Below, in pieces: positions 7,853 to 19,501 of a DNA stretch of 64,000 nucleotides (position 1 is its first letter; every line of letters starts with the position of its first letter). A program made the position numbers and the translations under genes. The notes under the pieces are model-generated. The model did no database searches and was not told where the DNA came from. It saw nothing but the letters and a program-made list of their open reading frames with translations. The DNA comes from Methyloversatilis sp. RAC08 (GTDB taxonomy: Bacteria > Pseudomonadota > Gammaproteobacteria > Burkholderiales > Rhodocyclaceae): NCBI RefSeq assembly GCF_001713355.1, contig NZ_CP016448.1:3038001-3102000 (forward strand), written 5' to 3'.

Positions 7853-8011
7853 ACTGCGTCACGGCGCGCCTCGAACAGCAGGGGAAACACGGTCTTCAAG
7901 GCTGTGCGCGGACAGTTGTCCTTGATAGTGTTCGCCTGCAGCGCTTGCGCCGGCGCGGTCGAGCAGGCCCGACCCGGTAGATGGATTCCAGTCATTTTTC
8001 GGGAGAAACCG

Positions 8012-8704
8012 ATGAAACGCCGACTTGCCGCCTCATGGATTGCCGCCTCGACTTTGTGCCTGACGGGCGCGCCGGCACTTGCCGCCGATTACTACCTGCA
8101 GATTCCGGGTATCGATGGCGGTTCGGTCGCCGAAGATTTCAAGGACCAGATCGAGGTGTCGTCATTCAGCTGGAACGTATTCAATACCGTGCCGACCGAT
8201 TCCACCGGCGGTACGGCATCGAAGGCGGTATTCGGCGATCTGCACTGGACGCAGGCGGTGAATCAGAGCATCCCCACTCTGTTTGCCGGGGTGGTCGGCG
8301 GCAAGGCCTTCGACGAGGTGGTGCTCAGCTTCGTGAAAGCGGGCGAAGACAAGTCCTATCGCTACTTCACGATGACCTTCGATGACGTCACGCTGACCTC
8401 GCTGAGCCTGTCGGGGACATCGGGCGGCGACGAGCCGCAGGCATCCCTGAGCCTGAGTTACACGCGCATCGCGCTCGCCTACATTCCGCAGGACAAGGGC
8501 GGAAAGCTCGGCGACCCCATCACGGCAATCTGGGATCTGGCAGGGGTGAAGGGTGACGCACGCGTACTGATGCAGCTTGCGTCACCCGACACGCCCATCC
8601 TGCTCGACGTGTCGCAACCCATACCCGAACCGGAGCAGGCGGCCCTGCTGCTGGCCGGTCTCGGCCTGATCGGCTGGGTGACCCGCCGCCGGCGGCTCTG
8701 CTGA
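8012..8704 (+). CDS. Secreted Hcp-fold protein with PEP-CTERM sorting signal
   Basis: A 230-residue exported protein. It has a signal peptide (MKRRLAASWIAA... ending near ALAA, ~24), then an Hcp-like core (YYLQIPGIDGGS, IEVSSFSWN, FVKAGEDKSYRYFTMTFDDV). This is the beta-barrel fold of type VI secretion tube proteins. The end is a PEP-CTERM tripartite signal: PEPE, a ~16-residue hydrophobic stretch, and an RRRR cluster before the final LC. Exosortase-type processing would cut and release or anchor it at the surface. No T6SS gene is nearby, so this is probably not a T6SS tube subunit but a surface protein using the Hcp fold. A GGGAGA ribosome binding site supports this start over upstream ones. 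Confidence 0.85.
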   Translation: MKRRLAASWIAASTLCLTGAPALAADYYLQIPGIDGGSVAEDFKDQIEVSSFSWNVFNTVPTDSTGGTASKAVFGDLHWTQAVNQSIPTLFAGVVGGKAFDEVVLSFVKAGEDKSYRYFTMTFDDVTLTSLSLSGTSGGDEPQASLSLSYTRIALAYIPQDKGGKLGDPITAIWDLAGVKGDARVLMQLASPDTPILLDVSQPIPEPEQAALLLAGLGLIGWVTRRRRLC

Positions 8705-8714
8705 CCTTCGTCCG

Positions 8715-9905
8715 CTACAGGCTGCCCTGACGCGCAGGCACTTGCTGCGGCAGGTTTGCTTCCGCGTCGGCGGCCGGACGATCCATCACGTCCTGCGGCC
8801 GCCGCAGCATGTCGAGCCAGACCGCCAGCACAGCCATCAGCCCGGCGCCGGTCATGCCGACGAGCACCTGCATGCTGGGCGAGTCACCCGACAGTGCGCC
8901 GGCCGCATCGGCCAGCGGTGCCAGCAGCACGCTCAGGCAGAACACTTCGAGCGAATAGCGCCCCATCAGGCACAAGGTGGCGGCGACCCCGCGCTGCAGC
9001 CATGCACCCGGACGGATCCAGCGCGCCGCGACATAGGCAAGCGCCAGGAAGTGCAGCACACGCAGCAGGTCCAGATCGGTCTTGCTGATCGGGTAGATCC
9101 ACTGCGCCACGGTCAGCGGCATCACCGCATCATGCAGATCAGGCGCGCGCCATGACAGCGACAGCACGAAGGACCCCAGCAGAAAGGCGCACGAAAGCGG
9201 CATCAGCAGCCGGTCGAAGGCGCGGCGATCGATCGCGTGCAGGCGGATCAGCGGTCGCGGCCGTGCGCAGCAGGCACCGAGAAAGAACAGGAACTGCCAG
9301 GCCAGCGGGTTGAAGAACCACACGCCTTCCGGCGCCGCCGGCAGATTCAGCCCGACATGCTTTTCGAGCAGCCAGAGCAGGCATGACGGCACGAGCACCC
9401 ACCACGGGTGACGCACCAGCAGCGGCAGCAGCCCGGCCAGCAGCGCCATCAGGATGACGTAGAGCGGCAGCGGGTCCATCAGCACCGGCTTGAACTGCAG
9501 CAGCACGCCGCCGACCAGCGCCGCCTCGGGCTCGTTCAGGAAATAGCCCAGCCCCATTTCGCTGATGAAGTCACGCGTTTCGACCCGCGCATTGGCGACG
9601 AACACCACTGCCAGCAACTGCGCCAGCAGGAAGACGTGCGCCACGTAAAGTACCCACGCACGGCGCAGCGCCTTCAGTGCAGCCGGAAAATAGCCGTCCC
9701 GCACGTACACCCGGCCGTAGGCGAGCATCGCGCCGTAGCCGGCGAGGAAGACGAACAGCTCTGCCGCATCGCTCAGACCGAAGTTGCGCAGCGTCAGGTA
9801 GCCCAGCGGGTTGCCGGGAATGTGGTCCCAGAACATGCAGACCAGCGCGATGCCGCGGAAGAAGTCGATGCGCAGGTCGCGCGTGTTCGGAAAGTGGCCG
9901 GACAT
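8715..9905 (-). CDS. OpgC-domain integral membrane acyltransferase
   Basis: A 396-residue polytopic membrane protein. The N-terminus (RDLRIDFFRGIALVCMFWDH) is the hallmark of the OpgC domain, part of the acyltransferase-3 superfamily. The Arg/Asp/Phe-Arg and the later His are the family's likely acyl-transfer residues. OpgC proteins add succinyl groups to osmoregulated periplasmic glucans, but many members act on other glycans. About ten membrane helices are visible. A longer in-frame start at 10004 would add a proline/arginine-rich leader unlike the family, so the ATG at 9905 is preferred. It is divergent from the DMF operon. No opgGH lies nearby, so the substrate is open. Confidence 0.85.
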   Translation of the reverse strand: MSGHFPNTRDLRIDFFRGIALVCMFWDHIPGNPLGYLTLRNFGLSDAAELFVFLAGYGAMLAYGRVYVRDGYFPAALKALRRAWVLYVAHVFLLAQLLAVVFVANARVETRDFISEMGLGYFLNEPEAALVGGVLLQFKPVLMDPLPLYVILMALLAGLLPLLVRHPWWVLVPSCLLWLLEKHVGLNLPAAPEGVWFFNPLAWQFLFFLGACCARPRPLIRLHAIDRRAFDRLLMPLSCAFLLGSFVLSLSWRAPDLHDAVMPLTVAQWIYPISKTDLDLLRVLHFLALAYVAARWIRPGAWLQRGVAATLCLMGRYSLEVFCLSVLLAPLADAAGALSGDSPSMQVLVGMTGAGLMAVLAVWLDMLRRPQDVMDRPAADAEANLPQQVPARQGSL

Positions 9906-10043: not shown

Positions 10044-10112
10044 TAAGCTCAAGTCCATCGCGCAGTGCACCAAACCGCTTTCCTCCCATCCGACCCTGAA
10101 GGAGCGCTCCAG

Positions 10113-11396
10113 ATGACTTACCCCGTCGATCGTCGCAACGTCATCAAGAGCATGGGCGCGCTGGCCGCGTCGGCCGCGCTGCCGTTTTCCATGCCGGCGC
10201 AGGCGCAGAAGAAGCCGACCGGCAAACCCATCGTGATCGGGCTGACCATTTCTCAGACAGCCGCGGCCGGCGTGGCCGATCACGGCGATCACCTGAACGG
10301 CTCCATCCTCGCGATGGAAGAGATCAACGCCAATGGCGGCATCCTCGGCCGGCCGCTCGAACTCAAGCCGGTCGATGTGGATCTGCTGTCGCCGGAAAGC
10401 TGTCAGGCGGTGGTACGCAAGCTGGTGGACATGAAGGTGCATGCCATTTCGTCGCCCTTCCTGTTCGTGCCGATTCCGGCCATGGATGCGTCGGTCGGCT
10501 ACAAGTGTCCCTATCTGAACGGCAACACGCAGCGCGCCGCGACCGACCTCGTCGCCGCCAATCCGCAGAAGTACGGCCACATCTTCCAGATGGATCCGTC
10601 GGAGGTGTACTACGGCTACACCTTCCCGAAATTCCTCGAAGACATGCAGGACAAGGGAGGCTGGAAGCCGATCAACAACAAGGTGCACATCGTCCAGGAG
10701 CAGATCGCCTACAACCAGACGATTTCCCGCGCCTGTCAGGAAGCGCTGAAGACGAGCCGCTTCGAACTGGCCAAGGTGACCGACATCCAGTATCCGGTGC
10801 AGGACTGGGGCGCGGTCGTCCGCGACATCAAGAAGACCGGCGCCGGCGCGGTCATGATCGACCACTGGGTGGCTGCCGAATACGCCGCCTTCGTCAAGCA
10901 GTTCCGCGCCAACCCGCTCAAGGGTGCGCTGGTGTATCTGCAGTACGGGCCGTCGCAGCCGGAATTCCTGCAGCTCGCCGGCAAGAACGCGGAAGGCTTC
11001 GTGTGGAGCACGGTGCTCGGCGTATATGCCGACGAAAAGGGCCGTGCCTTCCGCGAAAAGTACAAGAAGCGCTTTCCGGCCAAGGTGATGGGGCTGTGCT
11101 ACACCGGCAGCGGCTACGACATCGTCAACTTCCTCGCCCAGGCCTGGACTGCGGTCGGCGACCCGGACAAGTTCGCAGCGGTGAACGACTACATCCGCAA
11201 GACGCCGTTCCGCGGCGTGTGCGGCTGGTCCTACCTGAACAATGCGCGGCAGGAAGGCGTGCATTACCCGGTCGGCACCGACGACCTCGAAAAAGGCATG
11301 GCCCAGCTGTACTTCCAGGTGCAGAACGGCGAACACAAGATCATCTATCCGAACAAGCTGATCGAAACGCCGTTCAAGCCCGCGTCCTGGATGTAA
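10113..11396 (+). CDS. Amide/branched-chain-type ABC transporter substrate-binding protein, Tat-like signal
   Basis: A 427-residue periplasmic binding protein of the type-I fold used by HAAT transporters (LivJ, UrtA, FmdD, AmiC relatives). It starts with an export signal carrying twin arginines (DRRNVIK) and an Ala-rich core ending near AQA (~30). The mature part opens with PIVIGLTISQTAAAG and has the family's EEINANGGILGRPLEL signature near residue 75. It is the first gene of a tightly packed operon ending in the DMFase genes, so the likely ligand is DMF or another small amide. The start has GGAGCG upstream. It is closest in type to short-chain amide/urea binding proteins, but the ligand is inferred from context. 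Confidence 0.9.
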   Translation: MTYPVDRRNVIKSMGALAASAALPFSMPAQAQKKPTGKPIVIGLTISQTAAAGVADHGDHLNGSILAMEEINANGGILGRPLELKPVDVDLLSPESCQAVVRKLVDMKVHAISSPFLFVPIPAMDASVGYKCPYLNGNTQRAATDLVAANPQKYGHIFQMDPSEVYYGYTFPKFLEDMQDKGGWKPINNKVHIVQEQIAYNQTISRACQEALKTSRFELAKVTDIQYPVQDWGAVVRDIKKTGAGAVMIDHWVAAEYAAFVKQFRANPLKGALVYLQYGPSQPEFLQLAGKNAEGFVWSTVLGVYADEKGRAFREKYKKRFPAKVMGLCYTGSGYDIVNFLAQAWTAVGDPDKFAAVNDYIRKTPFRGVCGWSYLNNARQEGVHYPVGTDDLEKGMAQLYFQVQNGEHKIIYPNKLIETPFKPASWM

Positions 11397-11407
11397 TCGA
11401 CGTGACC

Positions 11408-12148
11408 ATGGCTCAGGCAGGGGACATGCTGTTCGCCTGCGACGACATCCGCCTCGACCTGGGCGGGCGCGAAATCCTGCGCGGCGTGTCGCTGTCGATC
11501 CGTCGCGGCGAGGTGCTCGGCATGATCGGGCCCAACGGCGCCGGCAAGACCAGCCTGCTCGAAGTGCTGTCCGGGCGCATCCGGCCGAAGTCGGGCACGG
11601 TGACCTTCAAGGGTCGGGACGTGACCGCGCTGCGGCTGCACGAGCGCGCCCGGCTCGGTCTGGGTCGAACCTACCAGACGCCGGTGGTGCCGGAAGAACT
11701 GACCGTGGCCGAAGTGCTGAAATCGGCGCGCCAGGCCTACAAGCCCTATCTGACGCGGCACCACGCTGAGTGGGCATGCGAGCTGCTCGGCCTGACGGTC
11801 GATGAAGACCTGATCGCCGGCCGGCTGGAAACGCTGAACCGGCGCAAGCTGCTGCTGGCCTGTCTGCTGATGCGCCGACCGCCGCTGCTGCTGATGGACG
11901 AGCCGGCCGCCGGGCTGATCAATTCCGAAGTCGACGAGATCGACCATCTGGTGCGCTTGCTGGCCAAGGAACTGAACCTGGCCATCCTGATCGTCGAACA
12001 CCGCATCGAACTGCTCGATGCCATCGCCGACCGCGTCATGGTGATGGATGTCGGCGAGGTGATCGCCGAAGGCAGCCTGCAGCACATCCTCGGCGATGCG
12101 CGCGTGCGCGCCGCCTATTTCGACAGCATCGGCGAGGTGCACGCATGA
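11408..12148 (+). CDS. ABC transporter ATP-binding protein (LivG/UrtD type) with degenerate signature motif
   Basis: A ~246-residue ATPase. Walker A is intact (GPNGAGKTS), the Q-loop region is RTYQTP, Walker B is LLLMDEPAAGL and the switch His is in IVEHRI. The family's signature segment, normally LSGGQ or in LivG types an L-x-x-G-Q variant, reads LETLNRRKLLLACLLM here, so both glycines are missing. The partner ATPase just downstream keeps a normal LSGGE. Such pairs can work with one degenerate site. An in-frame GTG at 11402 is an alternative start. The gap to the binding-protein gene is 11 bp. Confidence 0.88.
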   Translation: MAQAGDMLFACDDIRLDLGGREILRGVSLSIRRGEVLGMIGPNGAGKTSLLEVLSGRIRPKSGTVTFKGRDVTALRLHERARLGLGRTYQTPVVPEELTVAEVLKSARQAYKPYLTRHHAEWACELLGLTVDEDLIAGRLETLNRRKLLLACLLMRRPPLLLMDEPAAGLINSEVDEIDHLVRLLAKELNLAILIVEHRIELLDAIADRVMVMDVGEVIAEGSLQHILGDARVRAAYFDSIGEVHA

Positions 12149-12888
12149 GCGCCACCGCCACGCCACCGACCGACGCCGGTCGCGAAATCCTGAAGGTGGA
12201 AGGCCTGTCCGCAGGCTACGGGCCGCTGCGCGTGCTGCACGACCTCGACCTGTCAGTGCATGCCGGCGAGCGGGTCGGCATCGTCGGCCTGAACGGCCAC
12301 GGCAAGTCCACGCTGTTCCTCGCCATCGCCGGCCTGACCGGCTGGCAGCGCGGTTCGATCAAGCTAAATGGCGTGGAGGTCGGCGGCACGCGCAGCCAGG
12401 GGCCGGGTCGCTACACGCATCGCGTGGTCAAGCTCGGTCTGGCGCTGATGCCGCAGGGCGATGAAATCTTCCAGGGCCTGACGGTCGAGGAACATCTGGA
12501 CAGCGGTGCCTTCACGCCGCGCGCCTGGCGCGAGCGCGCTGCGCGCAAGCGGCGCGTGCTCGAGATCTTTCCGCCGCTGGAAAAGCTGATGAAGACGCCG
12601 GTCGGCCGGCTGTCCGGCGGCGAGCGGCGCATGGTGTCGCTCGGCCGCGGGCTGATGGCCGACGCGTCGCTGTTCCTGGTCGACGAGCCCTCGCTGGGCC
12701 TCGCGCCGAAGATCAGCAAGAGCGTCATCAACGCACTGATGAGCGTCGAACTGAATGACGCGGCGATGGTGATCGCCGAACAGAACGTATCGCTGCTGGA
12801 AGGGCGCGTGTCGCGCCTGATCGGCATGCATGTCGGAAAACTCAAGGGCGAAGCATCCGCGGCGTCCCGATCCCGCCCGGAGGTCTGA
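12145..12888 (+). CDS. ABC transporter ATP-binding protein (LivF/UrtE type)
   Basis: A 247-residue ATPase with a full set of motifs: Walker A GLNGHGKST, signature LSGGERRMVSLGRGLM, Walker B LFLVDEPSLGLAP and switch His region replaced by IAEQN as in LivF proteins. Its ATG overlaps the stop of the preceding ATPase by four bases (ATGA), so translation is coupled. Together they would energise the two permeases that follow. By position it belongs to the DMF operon. Confidence 0.92.
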   Translation: MSATATPPTDAGREILKVEGLSAGYGPLRVLHDLDLSVHAGERVGIVGLNGHGKSTLFLAIAGLTGWQRGSIKLNGVEVGGTRSQGPGRYTHRVVKLGLALMPQGDEIFQGLTVEEHLDSGAFTPRAWRERAARKRRVLEIFPPLEKLMKTPVGRLSGGERRMVSLGRGLMADASLFLVDEPSLGLAPKISKSVINALMSVELNDAAMVIAEQNVSLLEGRVSRLIGMHVGKLKGEASAASRSRPEV

Positions 12889-12891
12889 TTC

Positions 12892-13776
12892 GTGGAGTGG
12901 CCATCCATCCTGTTGTCGGGCATCACGCTTGCAGCCATCTACGGCTTGCTGGCAATCGGCATTTCCATCACCTGGTCCAGCCTGGGCATGGTGAACATGG
13001 CGTACGGCCTGACCTTCGCCGCGTCCGGCTACGGCGGCTGGCTGATGGCCGAGCACTTCAGCGAAGCCGGTGTGCTGGTCATCCTGGCCGGCATCGTCAC
13101 CGGTGCGCTGATCGGCGTCATCGTGTGCCTGATCGCCTTCATCCCCATCCATGACAAGCCCAACTTCAATGTGCGCGGCCTGATCGCGACGCTGGCGCTG
13201 AGCCTGATAGGCACCCAGGTGCTGCTGATGACCTTCGGCCCGCAGGCCAAGACGCTGCCGCCGCTGTTCGGCGAGTGGCAGTGGGAGATGACCGAAGAAT
13301 TGATCCTGACCGCCGACCAGGTGGGGACGCTGCTGTCGTCATTGCTGCTGCTCGGACTGACGCTGGCATGGATGAAGGGCAGCCGGCGCGGGCTGGAAAT
13401 CCGCGCCATGATGATGAATCCGTATGGTGCGGCGATCTGCGGCATCGGCGTGCGCAGCACCGGCATCTACGTGATGGCGATCACCGGCGCGCTGGCCGGG
13501 CTCGGTGCGGTGCTGCTGTGCCAGACCTATTTCGTCAGTCCGTTCTCCGGCCTGACGCCGATGATCAAGGGTGTCAGCGTGGCGCTGTGCGGCGGGCTGG
13601 GTTCGGTGTCCGGCGCACTGATCGCCGCCTGCATCCTCGGTCTGGTCGAGGCACTGACCACGGCGTATCTGGGCGGGCAGTATGTGCTGATCACCCAGTT
13701 CATCGTCATCATCGTCATCCTGCTGATCCGGCCGCGCGGCATTGCCGGCATGCTGGACAAGGCGCGGGAGGCATGA
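12892..13776 (+). CDS. ABC transporter permease (LivH/UrtB type)
   Basis: A 294-residue inner-membrane permease with about eight helices. It begins at a GTG three bases after the ATPase stop, preceded by a GGAGG ribosome binding site. The early segment AIYGLLAIGISITWSSLGMVNMAYG corresponds to the conserved LivH N-terminus, and the loop SRRGLEIRAMMMNP is the cytoplasmic coupling region. The stop codon overlaps the start of the next permease (ATGA). It forms the membrane channel together with the LivM-type protein. Confidence 0.9.
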   Translation: MEWPSILLSGITLAAIYGLLAIGISITWSSLGMVNMAYGLTFAASGYGGWLMAEHFSEAGVLVILAGIVTGALIGVIVCLIAFIPIHDKPNFNVRGLIATLALSLIGTQVLLMTFGPQAKTLPPLFGEWQWEMTEELILTADQVGTLLSSLLLLGLTLAWMKGSRRGLEIRAMMMNPYGAAICGIGVRSTGIYVMAITGALAGLGAVLLCQTYFVSPFSGLTPMIKGVSVALCGGLGSVSGALIAACILGLVEALTTAYLGGQYVLITQFIVIIVILLIRPRGIAGMLDKAREA

Positions 13777-15356
13777 TGTTCAAGGTCACCCGTTCGGAGA
13801 ACTGGAAGAACCCGCAGGACAGCTGGGCGCCGGATGCGCCGCGCTGGAAGCCGCGCATGCTGCCGGTCGGCCGGCTGCGCTGGTACTGGAAGGGACCGGC
13901 GCAGGGCAGCGCGCTGTGGCGTCTGCGCTACCCCTTCACGCGGCGCACCGTGCTGCGCACGCGCGGCGTCTACAACCCGAAGACGCTGCGTGCCGAGCGC
14001 ACCATCGTCGATCGCCGGCCGATCTACTGGGCGCTCGGCCTGGCGCTGCTGGCGCTGCTGCCGCCGTTTGTCGATTCCGGCGCATTGCTGGCGGCCGGCG
14101 CAGTGTTCTGCATCTACGCCGCGATCAATCTGTGCTGGATGCTCACCATCGGCACCGCCGGCATCTTTTCGCTGGCCAGTCCGGCGGTGGTCGGTGCAGC
14201 GGCCTATGGATCCGCCTGGCTGTCCATCGAATACGGCCTGCCCTGGTGGACGCTGCCCTTCATCGGCAGCGGCATCGGGCTGATCTTCGGCGCCATCATC
14301 GCGATACCTGCAACTCGCCTCGACGGCTTCTACTACGCGCTGCTGACGCTGGGCATCAACGAGCTGTGTCGCGTCTATGTCGTGCAGTCGCGCGTGTTCG
14401 GCTCGGCGACCGGTGGGCTGTACGGGGCGCCGTCCTATCTGCCGGATGGCTGGGACGAAACGAGCCAGCTCAGGCTGGGCGTCTATGCCTGCCTGGTGCT
14501 GATGATCGCCGCGCTGTTCCTGTACCGCTTCGTCAATGGCACGCGTCTGGGCCGCATCCTGCGCGCCGCACCCGAGAAGAAGGAGGCGTTCGCCGAGGCG
14601 ACCGGCATCGACTTCCGCTCGGCGCGGGTGCGCGTGTTCCTGATTTCGTCGATCGCGCTCGGCGTCATCGGCGGCTTCTACGCCACGCACTTCCGCGGCG
14701 CGTCGCCGACGCTGTTCTCGTTCGACCTGGTGCTGATGATGCTGGCGATGATCGTCATCGGCGGACTGGGGCGCGCCGAAGGGGCGGTGGTCGGCACGCT
14801 CATCGTCATCGTCATCGAAAAGTACCTGATTGACTGGGGGCCGGCCCGGCTCATCCTGATCGGTCTGATCATGCTCGGCGTCGTGCTGTTCCTGCGCGGC
14901 GGCCTGTTCGGCATGAAGCAGCAGTTCCGCGCCTGGCGGAACAAGAAGAAGAGCGAACGCCGTTCAACCCGCGCCGAAAAAGGAGGCGAAATGCTGCCCG
15001 AAGAAGCCACCGAAACCCGCGACAAGGATCAGATATTCGCCCGCCGCTTCGACAAGCAGCAGCGCGACTTCCTGAAGACGCTGGTGACCGACGAAGTGAT
15101 CGAGGAACACCGCGCGAAGCCGCTCGGCCAGCACAGCGAACAGCTGGAGCGCCTGCTCGTGTACTTCCGCCGCGGCGTGCAGAACGACAAGTACGCCATC
15201 GTCGCCACCGTACCCTTCAGGGAGTACCGCGTGATCGCGTTGTCCGGCTTCCGCGGCGTGGCGCCGCGCGTGGTCGACGACAAGGTGTATGCGACCGAGG
15301 ACGAGGCCTATCACGGCGTGTTCCTGCGTCGCGTGCAGGACCTGCTCGAATCGTAA
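13773..15356 (+). CDS. LivM-type permease joined in frame to the DMFase small subunit
   Basis: One open frame of 527 codons. Residues ~1-85 form an unusual cytoplasmic, Arg/Trp-rich leader. Residues ~86-390 are a LivM-type permease with about eight helices (MLTIGTAGIFSLASPAVV; IPATRLDGFYYALLTLGINEL; VIGGLGRAEGAVVG). The permease should end near residue 400 (FRAWRNKKKSERR), but no stop codon occurs. From Met407 the frame continues as the complete small-subunit sequence of N,N-dimethylformamidase. ATG ATG at 13773/13776 are alternative starts, coupled to the upstream stop. Either a true fusion protein is made, or the permease is always made with the tail and free small subunit comes from an internal start (next entry). 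A lost stop codon is possible. Confidence 0.85.
   Translation: MMFKVTRSENWKNPQDSWAPDAPRWKPRMLPVGRLRWYWKGPAQGSALWRLRYPFTRRTVLRTRGVYNPKTLRAERTIVDRRPIYWALGLALLALLPPFVDSGALLAAGAVFCIYAAINLCWMLTIGTAGIFSLASPAVVGAAAYGSAWLSIEYGLPWWTLPFIGSGIGLIFGAIIAIPATRLDGFYYALLTLGINELCRVYVVQSRVFGSATGGLYGAPSYLPDGWDETSQLRLGVYACLVLMIAALFLYRFVNGTRLGRILRAAPEKKEAFAEATGIDFRSARVRVFLISSIALGVIGGFYATHFRGASPTLFSFDLVLMMLAMIVIGGLGRAEGAVVGTLIVIVIEKYLIDWGPARLILIGLIMLGVVLFLRGGLFGMKQQFRAWRNKKKSERRSTRAEKGGEMLPEEATETRDKDQIFARRFDKQQRDFLKTLVTDEVIEEHRAKPLGQHSEQLERLLVYFRRGVQNDKYAIVATVPFREYRVIALSGFRGVAPRVVDDKVYATEDEAYHGVFLRRVQDLLES
14981..14986 (+). promoter_or_regulatory. Strong internal Shine-Dalgarno for the DMFase small subunit
   Basis: AGGAGG lies four bases before the ATG at 14991, inside the open frame of the upstream permease. 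It is a full match to the anti-Shine-Dalgarno core. It falls exactly at the border between permease and DMFase small-subunit sequence, which is where an independent gene start is expected. Confidence 0.75.
14991..15356 (+). CDS. dmfA1: N,N-dimethylformamidase small (alpha) subunit, internal start
   Basis: A 121-residue protein if translated from the internal ATG; characterised small subunits are about 130 residues. The match by eye to known DMFase small subunits runs through VIEEHRAKPLGQHS, the LERLLVYFRR segment, the FREYRVIALSGFRG core and the final TEDEAYHGVFLRRVQDL block. The small subunit pairs with the large subunit in an alpha2beta2-type enzyme that hydrolyses DMF to formate and dimethylamine in the cytoplasm. 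The large-subunit gene starts 25 bp later. It shares frame with the preceding permease without a stop between, so expression as a separate chain depends on the internal ribosome binding site. Confidence 0.85.
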   Translation: MLPEEATETRDKDQIFARRFDKQQRDFLKTLVTDEVIEEHRAKPLGQHSEQLERLLVYFRRGVQNDKYAIVATVPFREYRVIALSGFRGVAPRVVDDKVYATEDEAYHGVFLRRVQDLLES

Positions 15357-15381: not shown

Positions 15382-17700
15382 ATGGCACAGATCAAGGTTT
15401 TCGGTTACTGCGACCAGCTCACGGTCAAGGCGGGCGACACGCTCAGCGTGAAAGCCAGTGTGGATGGCGCCGACAGCGTGAGCGCACAGCTGGTGCGGCT
15501 CATCCATGGCGACGCGCACCCGGACGGCCCGGGCTTTGTCGAGGAGGCGATCGACAGCCCGATCAACCGCGACTGGCCGGCGAAGAAGCAATACACGCAG
15601 GTCGGCTCCTTCCTGCGCGCGCACGACCCGGACCACAGGCTTGCCGTGACCGGCAGCTTCACGCTGCATGCCTTCATCACGTCGACGCTGCCGGACATCG
15701 GCGTACGCCAGGCGCTGCTCGGCCGCTGGTCGATCGACCGCAACGAAGGCTATTGCCTGGGCATCAACCAGAAGGGCTATCTGGAATTCTGGATCGGCGA
15801 TGGCCAGGCGGTCGATTACGTCGCGGCCGAAGTGCCGCTGGTGGCGCGCGTGTGGTACTTCGTCGCGGTCAGCTACGACGCCACGACCGGCCGCGCGACG
15901 ATCCACCAGCAGTCGGTGCTCAATCGCTACAACAGCCTGCTGTCGCCGGTCGCGCCGATGGATTACGGCTCGCATGTGCACGAAACGCTGCGCGTGAAGC
16001 CAGTCCGTGCCGACGCGCCCTTCCTGGTCGCCGGCGCGCAGGACTGGCATGAACTGCGCGGGCATTTCGTCGCGCAGTGCTTCTGCGGCAAGATCGACCG
16101 CCACGGCATGTTCGACCGCGCACTGACGCGCGACGAACTCGAGGCGCTGGCCGGAGGCGGTGTGCCGCACGCCAACGGCCTGCTCGCCTACTGGGACACC
16201 ACGCACGGCTACACCGACCGCGGCATCGGCGACACCGTGTTCGATACCGGCCCGTACCACCTGCACGCCGAAGGCTACAACCGGCCGATCCGCGCGCAGA
16301 CCGGCTGGAACTGGAACGGCCGCGACGACTGTTTCCGGCTTGCCCCGCAGCAGTACGGCGGCATCGAGTTCCACGTCGATGCGATGATCGATTCGAACTG
16401 GGACGAAACGCTGTCGTTCACGATTCCGGCCGCGCTGCGCAGTGGCGTCTATGCAGTGCGCCTGCGCGTCGGCGACGGTGCCGGTCTGGCCGAGGACCAC
16501 GTGGTGTTCTTCCTGCGCGCGGCCGTGCCGAAGGCGCCGGTGGCGCTGCTGATGCCCACTGCCAGCTATCTCGCCTACGCCAACGAAAAGCTCAGCTTCG
16601 ATGCCCAGATCATCCAGCCGATGGCCGGCCAGCCGCCCATCGTCAGCGAGGTCGACATCGAAATGTACAAGAACCACGAATTCGGCCTGTCCACCTACGA
16701 CCATTTCCTCGACGGGCTGGGCGTGTCCTACAGCTCCTACCGCCGGCCGGTGGTGAACATGCGACCGAAGTACCGCATGTCCAGCATGGGCCTGACCTGG
16801 CAATTCCCGGCCGACCTGTCCATCGTCGCCTGGCTGGAAAAGCTCGGCTATGACTACGAAATCCTGACCGACGAAGACCTGCACCGCGACGGGCTGGCTG
16901 CGCTCAAGCCCTACAAGGTGGTGCTGAGCGGCTCGCACCCGGAGTACTACTCGGAACGCATGCTCGACGCGACCGAAGACTATGTGACCGGCGGCGGTCG
17001 CCTGCTGTACATGGGCGGCAACGGCTACTACTGGTGCGTCGGCTTTCGCGACGACGAACCGTGGATCATGGAAGTGCGCAAGCTCGATTCCGGTTCGCGC
17101 GCCTGGGAGGCGCGCCCCGGCGAGCACTATCTGTGCACCACCGGCGAAAAGAGCGGGTTGTGGAAGAACCGCGGCCGCCCGCCGCAGAAGCTCACCGGTG
17201 TCGGCTTCACCGCGGAGGGCTTCGAAGAGTCGAAGTCCTACCGGCGCATGCCGGACAGTCATCACCGTACGGTGTCGTGGATCATGGAGGGCGTCGAGGG
17301 CGACATCATCGGCGACTTCGGTCTGGCGCGCGGCGGTGCCGCCGGCGTCGAGCTCGACCGCTATGACCTCGCGCTCGGCACGCCGCCGCACACGCGCATC
17401 CTCGCGTCGTCGGGCGGTCACAGCGACAACTACATGCTGGTCGTGGAAGAGATCGTCTACATGCACCCGGGCTTCGGCGGCACGCAGGAACCCAAGGTGC
17501 GCGCCGACATGACCTGGTTCACTGCGCCCAATCACGGCGCGGTGTTCTGCACCGGCTCGATCGCCTGGAGCAGCGCGCTACCCAGCAAGGACTTCGACAA
17601 CAACGTTTCGCGCATCACGAAGAACGTCGTCGACGCCTGCCTGAAGGACGGTCCGTTGCCGGGCTGGGCGTGGATCGCCGACGAGAAGCAGTGGCGCTGA
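15382..17700 (+). CDS. dmfA2: N,N-dimethylformamidase large (beta) subunit
   Basis: A 772-residue catalytic subunit; known homologues are about 760. The N-terminal half has a LamG/concanavalin-like beta domain (about 90-260: GRWSIDRNEGYCLGI; WYFVAVSYDATTGRATIH). The C-terminal half is the catalytic alpha/beta domain. DMFase uses a mononuclear iron held by two Tyr and one Glu. In this protein Tyr399 (SYLAYANE), Tyr439 (LSTYDHF) and Glu521 (SHPEYY) fall at or within one residue of the positions I recall for the Paracoccus enzyme, with His519 and Asn547 also in place, so it should be active. It is the last gene of the operon; a convergent LuxR regulator follows after 59 bp. Substrate could include other N-alkyl formamides. 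Confidence 0.93.
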   Translation: MAQIKVFGYCDQLTVKAGDTLSVKASVDGADSVSAQLVRLIHGDAHPDGPGFVEEAIDSPINRDWPAKKQYTQVGSFLRAHDPDHRLAVTGSFTLHAFITSTLPDIGVRQALLGRWSIDRNEGYCLGINQKGYLEFWIGDGQAVDYVAAEVPLVARVWYFVAVSYDATTGRATIHQQSVLNRYNSLLSPVAPMDYGSHVHETLRVKPVRADAPFLVAGAQDWHELRGHFVAQCFCGKIDRHGMFDRALTRDELEALAGGGVPHANGLLAYWDTTHGYTDRGIGDTVFDTGPYHLHAEGYNRPIRAQTGWNWNGRDDCFRLAPQQYGGIEFHVDAMIDSNWDETLSFTIPAALRSGVYAVRLRVGDGAGLAEDHVVFFLRAAVPKAPVALLMPTASYLAYANEKLSFDAQIIQPMAGQPPIVSEVDIEMYKNHEFGLSTYDHFLDGLGVSYSSYRRPVVNMRPKYRMSSMGLTWQFPADLSIVAWLEKLGYDYEILTDEDLHRDGLAALKPYKVVLSGSHPEYYSERMLDATEDYVTGGGRLLYMGGNGYYWCVGFRDDEPWIMEVRKLDSGSRAWEARPGEHYLCTTGEKSGLWKNRGRPPQKLTGVGFTAEGFEESKSYRRMPDSHHRTVSWIMEGVEGDIIGDFGLARGGAAGVELDRYDLALGTPPHTRILASSGGHSDNYMLVVEEIVYMHPGFGGTQEPKVRADMTWFTAPNHGAVFCTGSIAWSSALPSKDFDNNVSRITKNVVDACLKDGPLPGWAWIADEKQWR

Positions 17701-17759: not shown

Positions 17760-18824
17760 TCAGATGAAGCGCGCCTGATGCAGCTGGCGGTAGCGCACCG
17801 CCAGCGTGGCGCCGTCGATGTGCAGCTCTTCCTGACGCAGCAGCGACGCCAGTTCGCCCTTGTCGCGCACGTTCAGCTTTTCGTAGATGGTGCGCAGGTA
17901 GAAGCGGATCGTGGCCGGTGACAGCTCGAGCTGGCGCGCGATTTCCTTGTAGCTGCTGCCGCGGCCGAATGCTTCCGCGACCGAGGTTTCGCGCGGCGTG
18001 AGCACGTCGAGGCGCGAGCGGCCGCGCACCACCAGCAGCGTGAAGTCGCCAAGCAGGTGACGTTGCAGCACGACTGTGCGCAGCTTGAGCCGGAAGTCGT
18101 CGGTCTTCAGCCACAGGCCTATCGTGTCCGGCAGGCAGCCGTCGCCGATGTCCGGCCACTCGCAGCGCAGCGCCTCGACGAACTGCGGTTCGGCGTTCAG
18201 CAGCTGGCCCTGGCGGTCGAGAATCGCCATGGCCACCTGATCGTTCGCCATGCTGGCCTTCAGATATTCCATCTGGAAGATGCGGTTCGATGTCCACGCC
18301 GAACACAGGTGCGGCATCAGGAATTGAGCCATCTGCTGGTCGCCGCGCGTGAAGCGGGCGTCACCGACCGTGCGGTACAGCGACAGGAACACGAAGGCGG
18401 TTTCGGACGGCAGATAGACCGATGTGCAGAAGGCCTGTCCGACACCGTGTTCGCCCATCAGCGTCGCCAGCCCCGGTGCCTCGTTGAACCTGCGCTGATC
18501 GAAATAGACGGTTTCTCGCGGCTTGGCCTTCACCGCCTTGGCCAGCGCATCGTCGTACTTGGTTTCTTCCCACAGCGGCACGAAGCCGTCGTCGAGGTTG
18601 AAGGGCTGCGAGCTGTGCAGCGCGAAGCTGCCCGATGCGGGCGACATGATGCCCCACCACGCCTTGTCGAATCCGACCAGCGGTTGCACCCGTTCCAGCG
18701 CCGCCTGCTGGAAATCGTCTATCGCCTTCGCCTGCGCCAGCGACTGCAGATCGAGTACTGCGTCGCTGAATTCGCCCACACTGAACATGGCGCCATCCCG
18801 ATGAAAGACCTGCACGCCGGCCAT
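17760..18824 (-). CDS. LuxR-family transcriptional regulator, probable DMF operon activator
   Basis: A 354-residue regulator with a long N-terminal sensory region (~1-270, GAF/PAS-like, no receiver aspartate) and a C-terminal LuxR-type HTH (~275-335: LTPRETSVAEAFGRGSSYKEIARQLELSPATIRFYLRTIYEKLNV). It is convergent with the DMFase large subunit. A LuxR-family activator of DMF genes (DmfR) is known from Paracoccus aminophilus plasmid pAMI2, so a DmfR-like role is likely. DMF, a breakdown product or formate may be sensed. Met at 18788 (MFSVGEF) is an alternative start. The 281 bp upstream to the pcaC-like gene hold nothing I recognise. Confidence 0.85.
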   Translation of the reverse strand: MAGVQVFHRDGAMFSVGEFSDAVLDLQSLAQAKAIDDFQQAALERVQPLVGFDKAWWGIMSPASGSFALHSSQPFNLDDGFVPLWEETKYDDALAKAVKAKPRETVYFDQRRFNEAPGLATLMGEHGVGQAFCTSVYLPSETAFVFLSLYRTVGDARFTRGDQQMAQFLMPHLCSAWTSNRIFQMEYLKASMANDQVAMAILDRQGQLLNAEPQFVEALRCEWPDIGDGCLPDTIGLWLKTDDFRLKLRTVVLQRHLLGDFTLLVVRGRSRLDVLTPRETSVAEAFGRGSSYKEIARQLELSPATIRFYLRTIYEKLNVRDKGELASLLRQEELHIDGATLAVRYRQLHQARFI

Positions 18825-19105: not shown

Positions 19106-19501
19106 ATGATCATGAGCGATGGCGCGAAGCGCGGGGAGGCGGTACGCCGCGAAGTGATGAGCGATGCCTTTGTGGATCGCGCACTGGGCAACGCGACCGA
19201 CTTCACGCAGCCGCTGCAGGCCTTCATCAACGAGCATGCCTGGGGCGGCGTGTGGACGCGCGATGGGCTGGACCGGCGCACGCGCAGCCTGATCACGCTG
19301 TCGGCGCTGACCGCGCTGAAGTGCCCGAACGAGCTCAAGGGCCATGTGCGCGGTGCGCTCAACAATGGCTGCACGGTGGAGGAAATCCGCGAAACGCTGC
19401 TGCACTGCGCGGTGTATGCCGGCGTGCCGGCGTCGGTCGATGCTTTCAGGGCGGCGCAGGAAGTGGTCGATGCCTGGCGGGCGGAGCAGGCAGCCGGCTG
19501 A
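19106..19501 (+). CDS. Carboxymuconolactone decarboxylase family protein, PcaC type
   Basis: A ~131-residue protein with the full PcaC pattern: RREVMSDAFVDRAL, then FINEHAWGGVWTRDGLDRRTRSLITLSALTAL, then HVRGALNNGCTVEEIRETLLHCAVYAGVPA. PcaC decarboxylates gamma-carboxymuconolactone in protocatechuate breakdown, but no other pca gene is near. It sits just beyond the DMF regulator. It may therefore serve another substrate; CMD proteins also include peroxidase-like enzymes, though no CxxC motif is present here. A GGAG ribosome binding site precedes the first ATG; ATG at 19112 is an alternative. Confidence 0.85.
   Translation: MIMSDGAKRGEAVRREVMSDAFVDRALGNATDFTQPLQAFINEHAWGGVWTRDGLDRRTRSLITLSALTALKCPNELKGHVRGALNNGCTVEEIRETLLHCAVYAGVPASVDAFRAAQEVVDAWRAEQAAG

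Follow-up and report, generated by a model that had tools for sequence, protein, structure and literature searches.

In-frame fusion of a LivM-type ABC importer permease with a DMFase small subunit, and a putative internal start at the joint

A single gene in the window (the whole analysed stretch of 64,000 nucleotides from Methyloversatilis sp. RAC08) encodes a LivM-type permease and a DMFase small subunit in one reading frame. It is likely that two proteins are made from this gene (13773-15356), a membrane-anchored and a free enzyme subunit, both of which would bind the large subunit. The proposal is based on the fusion, its conservation, the cassette, the catalytic residues and the codon-level conservation of a start at the joint. 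The strong start signal is absent where a separate small-subunit gene adjoins the fusion. The cassette and the adjoining regulator gene are as follows.

10110-11396, + strand: periplasmic substrate-binding protein of the importer (Peripla_BP_6; TAT signal match under the Pfam cut-off; homologues stand first in related cassettes)
11396-12148, + strand: LivG-type ATPase, start approximate (open frame; homologues in order at related loci)
12145-12888, + strand: LivF-type ATPase (open frame; homologues in order at related loci)
12892-13776, + strand: LivH-type permease (BPD_transp_2, E 1.1e-26; homologues at related loci)
13773-15356, + strand: fusion gene, LivM-type permease (residues 1 to ~390), basic linker and DMFase small subunit (residues 407-527)
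15382-17700, + strand: DMFase-type large subunit (residues equivalent to Y399, Y440, H519, E521 and N547 kept)
17760-18824, - strand: LuxR-type regulator adjoining the cassette (distant likeness to the LuxR-type gene of pAMI2)

The translated frame was stop-free from the ATG to the TAA at 15354, as an earlier note on this DNA had claimed, and gave a protein of 527 aa and 59.1 kDa. Residues 111-370 matched BPD_transp_2 in Pfam (E 7.9e-27) and residues 411-524 matched the solved DMFase small subunit 6lvb_B (E 5.5e-10). The AlphaFold model of residues 407-527 had a mean pLDDT of 80.6, and its sole PDB fold matches at E <= 0.001 were DMFase small subunits (three chains; best E 3.5e-7, TM 0.81). 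The domain was thus identified as a DMFase small subunit by both the sequence and the fold of 6lvb chain B. It is not encoded by a gene of its own beside the large subunit but lies in frame with the permease, and the large subunit follows next downstream. The fusion missed the NCBIfam cut-offs for LivM (65 bits vs 366) and UrtC (56 vs 296). The N-terminus of the fusion is basic and extends ~80 aa ahead of the first hydrophobic segment. A structure model of the whole fusion was discarded, the pLDDT of 59.5 being too poor to give the tether geometry.

The importer set of LivHMGF type, i.e. a binding protein, two ATPases and two BPD_transp_2 permeases in an operon, was present; the binding protein and permeases were called by Pfam, and the ATPases by position and by homology to annotated 'ATP-binding cassette' genes of the same cassette. 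In the large subunit, the Fe ligands Y399, Y440 and E521 as well as H519 and N547 were identical in an alignment with the Paracoccus enzyme judged by eye (numbering of PMC7686228), and the pocket residue F693 was replaced with Tyr in the same alignment. The large subunit was 98% identical to its counterpart in Methyloversatilis sp. XJ19-49. A PcaC-like carboxymuconolactone decarboxylase is encoded near the cassette at 19106-19501 of the window; it was found also in L012 and was absent from the L013 stretch. Elsewhere in the window genome (G000:C1:776613-776822; L004, L036, L133) there is a further small-subunit-like gene, divergent and with a frame of 147 aa, which is accompanied by a large subunit of its own.

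The closest characterised system is DmfA1/DmfA2 of Paracoccus (PDB 6lvb; plasmid pAMI2), the N,N-dimethylformamidase whose iron ligands and catalytic residues are also found in the large subunit of the window. A DMFase splits DMF into formate and dimethylamine. The small and large subunits are homologous and stand in the same order in both systems, and the large subunits share 42% identity (pAMI2 sequence H29). In contrast to the window, where the small subunit is fused to the importer permease, Paracoccus DmfA1 has a gene of its own next to a LuxR-type gene, and no LivM-type importer was found in the 8.7 kb examined around it. The earlier note described the small subunit of DMFase clusters as a gene of its own, which is true of the characterised Paracoccus enzyme and of the standalone loci that lie outside the fused clade. 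The LuxR gene of the window was rejected as a DmfR orthologue, its similarity to the pAMI2 LuxR-type gene being weak (25% over 138 aa, E 0.004). According to the available part of PMC7686228, the DMFase large subunit is inactive alone, the entrance of the active site is formed by the large and small subunits together, and the assembly is an alpha2beta2 or its dimer. In comparison with importers of the LivHMGF or UrtBCDE type, the cassette has the same binding protein, two ATPases and two permeases; unlike in these importers, the permease of the window carries a basic N-terminal stretch and an enzyme subunit at its C-terminus.

The earlier note had offered two alternatives, a subunit tethered to the membrane or the loss of a stop combined with internal initiation, and suggested that homologous loci be compared for a stop codon at the junction. 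No such stop was found: a large-subunit pattern scan of genome contigs revealed the permease and small subunit in one stop-free frame in 10 of 10 relatives, namely Methyloversatilis sp. XJ19-49, a betaproteobacterial MAG, Methylobacterium jeotgali, Chelatococcus reniformis, five Bradyrhizobium and a Rhodospirillales MAG. Altogether 57 fused loci were examined (L019 and L107 being one locus), including loci of Methyloversatilis, Methylobacterium, Chelatococcus, Bradyrhizobium, Aminobacter, Agrobacterium and Ensifer. A recently lost stop codon or a sequencing error in one genome has a negligible probability, as the same open fusion occurs in many genera from Methyloversatilis to Ensifer. The fusion is old and conserved in its relatives; therefore, the reading of a private loss of the stop in this genome is wrong. 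The tethered subunit and the internal start seem, judged from the sequences, both to be true together instead of being alternatives.

The order binding protein-LivG-LivF-LivH-[LivM-small]-large was common to the compared fused loci uncut by stretch ends. The small subunit matched 40 plasmid records, 24 of which carried the match under a gene annotated as a branched-chain amino acid permease, and the fused arrangement was directly confirmed at three plasmid loci, one of them in an unannotated record. The profile searches yielded matches in 6/398 (phylum-wide), 25/296, 5/250, 34/249, 6/240, 7/12 and 5/18 genomes, in overlapping samples, with varying cut-offs and with standalone small-subunit matches counted in. 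With the small subunit of the window as the single query, 7 of the 199 genomes of its family gave a match; the only strong one besides the window's own gene was a standalone subunit of another genus with 44% identity. Five other genomes of the genus had weak small-subunit paralogues alone, and the one fetched (L150) also had a large subunit. Because the fusion is rare within the genus, its distribution suggests a gain by transfer there. A match in archaeal Halalkalicoccus (L024:8800-9342, 'inner-membrane translocator') was rejected as a fusion, since in its ~180 aa the small-subunit domain alone was found; its annotation may stem from the bacterial fusions.

The joint of the two domains contains the following elements.

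14943-14990, + strand: linker KKKSERRSTRAEKGGE, rich in Lys and Arg, its EKGGE part nearly invariant in fused loci
14981-14986, + strand: AGGAGG, Shine-Dalgarno-like, spelled by the linker codons AAA GGA GGC
14991-14993, + strand: ATG (codon 407), at which the free small subunit (121 aa, 14.2 kDa) is proposed to be initiated internally
Codon stretch of the joint bearing the Shine-Dalgarno (SD), proposed internal-start signal: AAAGGAGG; also AAAGGAGGC

The joint reads GAA AAA GGA GGC GAA ATG, i.e. AAGGAGG, then CGAA, then the in-frame ATG at 14991, in agreement with the AGGAGG and ATG first noticed there. The product sizes that had been estimated, ~57 and ~14 kDa, were close to the computed 59.1 kDa of the fusion and 14.2 kDa of the internal product. 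Across the fused loci, the linker EKGGE|xxPEEA was nearly invariant (GKGGI in L021). The ATG itself is not invariant, being present at this position in 27 of 43 distinct junctions; the other codons were GTC (4), CTG (3), GCG, GCA and CCA (2 each), GCT, GTG and GTT (1 each), and several of the non-ATG junctions had ATG, GTG or TTG one codon on.

The fused loci were compared according to the presence of a second small-subunit gene within the fetched stretch; paralogues elsewhere in the genome, or far off with a large subunit of their own (L175), were excluded from this definition. An SD was taken as strong at a pairing of -10 kcal/mol or stronger. At the 33 loci without a second gene, a start codon was present in 32 and a strong SD in 26; the sole exception without a start, L117, lies at a contig end, and in 3 of the 33 the stretch stops at a contig edge. 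At the 16 loci with a second gene, which represent at least 3 changes on the tree, a strong SD was found in none and a start codon in 10, the ATG persisting in 8. For the codon tests, a set of 36 loci without a second gene was obtained from the 57 by leaving out the 16, four loci cut off by a contig edge close to the fusion (L117, L130, L132, L168) and L012, the junction of which is identical to that of the window. A start codon was found at the first or second codon of the junction in all 36. In the Val-Val/Ile-Val group, a GTG as the second junction codon was dropped as evidence of a start, since GTG is a common Val codon there.

The most serious alternative to the two-product model, itself unlikely, is that the fusion protein is the only product and that the SD-like stretch is a by-product of EKGGE, a relic of a once separate gene, or the cause of a ribosome pause aiding membrane insertion. 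The EKGG peptide by itself indeed forces an SD-like stretch, and EKGGE and PEEA are kept even where the start codon or the strong SD is missing. The synonymous codon choice, however, exceeded the need of the peptide at the loci without a second gene and not at those with one, which together with the start codons kept at 36 of 36 junctions argues against a fusion-only product. The linker Lys was AAA in 31 of the 36 loci (6.1 expected from the gene's own codon usage) and the first Gly was GGA or GGG in 30 (9.2 expected on the same basis). With one locus per lineage, the corresponding values were 15 of 18 for AAA (expected 3.5, P 2e-9) and 13 of 18 for GGA/GGG (expected 4.9, P 6e-5); these P values presume independent lineages, which is true only roughly, and the lists were hand-drawn from the large-subunit tree, from which L168-L175 are absent. 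At the second-gene loci, AAA was found in 2 of 15 (expected 2.2) and GGA/GGG in 0 of 15 (expected 4.5); L107, the same locus as L019, was left out of the 15-row tests and is counted among the 16.

The position of the signal was determined in 28 loci without a second gene. The linker Lys ranked first of 8 conserved Lys columns for AAA, the first Gly ranked first of 35 for GGA, and the junction was the strongest SD-like place of 496 columns, found in 79% of the sequences compared with 25% for the next place. The predicted mRNA structure at the junction was weak, with a median percentile of 0.90 and 13 of the 28 at 0.9 or more, whereas the second-gene loci had a median of 0.27 and 0 of 13 at 0.9 or more. 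The GC3 values were similar (0.88 without vs 0.84 with a second gene). Eight loci fetched later, none with an adjoining second small gene, all had a start codon and an SD of -10.7 kcal/mol or stronger; the test is modest because most of them are near relatives of earlier loci and L168 ends inside the large subunit.

Other results were less favourable to the internal start. The per-gene synonymous-shuffle test of the SD energy was mostly not significant (5/27, 0/12 and 2/7 at p<=0.05), as would be expected of a fusion-only product. Six of the 36 loci (5 of 18 lineages) without a second gene had a weak SD (-7.1 to -7.7) with GGT or GGC at the first Gly while AAA and the ATG were kept, and their SD energy was no better than that of the second-gene loci. 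At 54% of 13 second-gene loci an SD-like place was found 6-8 codons downstream of the junction, which indicates that such places also arise by coding alone. The contrast between loci with and without a second gene consists of 3 independent pairs, with which a sign test is unable to reach 0.05. Altogether, an in-frame start codon and an SD were found to be kept beyond the need of coding, with mixed outcomes in the shuffle test and at the 6 of 36 loci.

Free small subunit could also be produced by cutting the full-length protein in the basic linker, resulting in a free permease and a free small subunit. The conserved Lys/Arg-rich linker would suit such a cleavage, but the synonymous-codon signal and the start codons would be left unexplained, and this explanation is very improbable.

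The linker contains 10 Lys+Arg vs 3 Asp+Glu and the first 83 residues of the fusion contain 20 vs 5. The positive-inside rule serves as a guide to the cytoplasmic side of membrane proteins; by this rule, the Lys- and Arg-rich linker is probably cytoplasmic, and so are probably the first 83 residues. The dN/dS of the linker and tethered small domain was 0 to 0.14 in six groups of close relatives, and 0.02 to 0.06 in the three of these groups which have a separate small-subunit gene. The low values, including those of the latter groups, indicate purifying selection and suggest that the anchored form is kept for its own sake. This conservation of the domain where a separate gene shares the cassette would also be expected if the tethered domain were mainly regulatory, sensing or binding the large subunit and gating the importer, instead of forming an active tethered enzyme. 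Such a role is improbable: the domain is the sole small subunit of the fetched stretch in 33 of 49 loci (the stretch being cut by a contig edge in 3 of the 33), and the large subunit of the characterised enzyme lacks activity without its partner (PMC7686228, available part).

The two-product model was formulated from these observations as follows. We infer that both products are translated: full-length translation would give LivM bearing the DMFase small subunit at its C-terminus, on the cytoplasmic side, and initiation at the internal ATG at 14991, aided by the SD in AAA GGA GGC, would give the free 121-aa small subunit. The anchored and free small subunits would both assemble with the separately encoded large subunit, and part of the amidohydrolase would be fixed at the inner opening of its own ABC importer. 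Anchoring of the small subunit to LivM would place the entrance of the enzyme near the exit of the importer, so that uptake might be coupled to hydrolysis. Transporters of the LivHMGF class contain one LivM per importer. Each importer would accordingly carry a single anchored subunit, and the remaining alpha2beta2 positions would be filled with subunit from internal initiation.

In its fullest form, which we favour somewhat over its negation, the model describes a transporter-enzyme metabolon: the frame encodes a permease with an obligatory enzyme subunit and also the free form of this subunit via a ribosome-binding site in the linker. EKGGE would descend from the ribosome-binding site that served the small-subunit gene when it was still separate; it would now serve both as peptide and as start signal, and would be released from its start duty where a separate gene takes over. 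The substrate of the importer is probably a small N-alkyl formamide or amide, as suggested by the kept active site, and the imported cargo is probably broken down by the fused enzyme. In 90 of the 161 listed flanking frames, which were scanned, no conserved neighbour of the cassette stood out. Among the matches listed (for 80 of the 90 frames, 25 of 78 families), one occurrence each was recorded for formamidase, methylamine dehydrogenase and copper amine oxidase and two for carbon-nitrogen hydrolase, AraC- and LuxR-type regulators being the commonest; some of the scanned frames are spurious because frames opposite the cassette genes were also picked.

Internal in-frame starts are known in bacterial genes, e.g. 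in the long and short forms of CheA. The fusion resembles CheA-type genes in that one frame gives two products with a common C-terminus; it differs in the nature of these products, which would be a membrane permease (long) and a complete enzyme subunit (short). Transporters other than ABC importers, such as LplT, also occur joined to enzymes. In LplT-Aas, a transporter and an enzyme for its cargo are apparently in one frame in some bacteria, and such transporter-enzyme fusions are thus already known; there a whole enzyme is joined instead of one subunit, and no internal start is described for LplT-Aas in the available part of the source (PMC11416262). Full-text literature searches, whose reach leaves out most subscription journals, gave no report of a LivM-DMFase small-subunit fusion, in line with the opinion of the earlier note that a fusion of this kind is undescribed. 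As far as these searches go, the combination of an ABC importer permease, an obligatory enzyme subunit and a nested start is undescribed.

If the model is true, the cassette is a natural and widespread case in which an ABC importer is physically joined to the enzyme consuming its cargo, and internal initiation determines the proportion of anchored to free enzyme. The hand-over of the substrate from the importer to the enzyme becomes directly testable, and the loci with and without a separate subunit gene provide a natural experiment. The plain branched-chain amino acid permease annotations, as in the 24 of 40 matched plasmid records, conceal an amidohydrolase subunit.

The origin of the fusion was studied with a quick, midpoint-rooted tree of 82 large subunits. 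Those encoded downstream of a fusion (47; 42 immediately and 5 behind an additional small-subunit gene) fell in one set of 62 rows with an SH-aLRT of 98; this set also includes 12 second large subunits of fused loci and three standalone loci on long branches (L139, L140, L027). The standalone locus L136 of the window's family adjoined the set, and the Paracoccus DMFase was placed outside. The label 'directly fused' required 6 changes on the tree, indicating that separations or duplications came afterwards. A single origin of the fusion is likely on this topology, though not proven. L139 and L140, inside the fused set, have standalone small subunits with Liv-type transporter genes upstream, and possibly represent the separation of an earlier fusion.

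Several fused loci deviated in gene content. In L102 (G557) there is 1.3 kb ahead of the large subunit, and an open frame of 383 aa without a Pfam match lies at 7912-9060, in the interval separating the fusion from the large subunit. The plasmid of Aminobacter sp. MDW-2 (L022:9440-14183) has two tandem large subunits behind one fused small subunit, and no second small-subunit gene was found in the L022 stretch. In the clade of L113, L114, L126, L128 and L025, the junction codon encodes Ala and a separate, more divergent small-subunit gene lies between the fusion and the large subunit, resulting in two kinds of small subunit per one large subunit.
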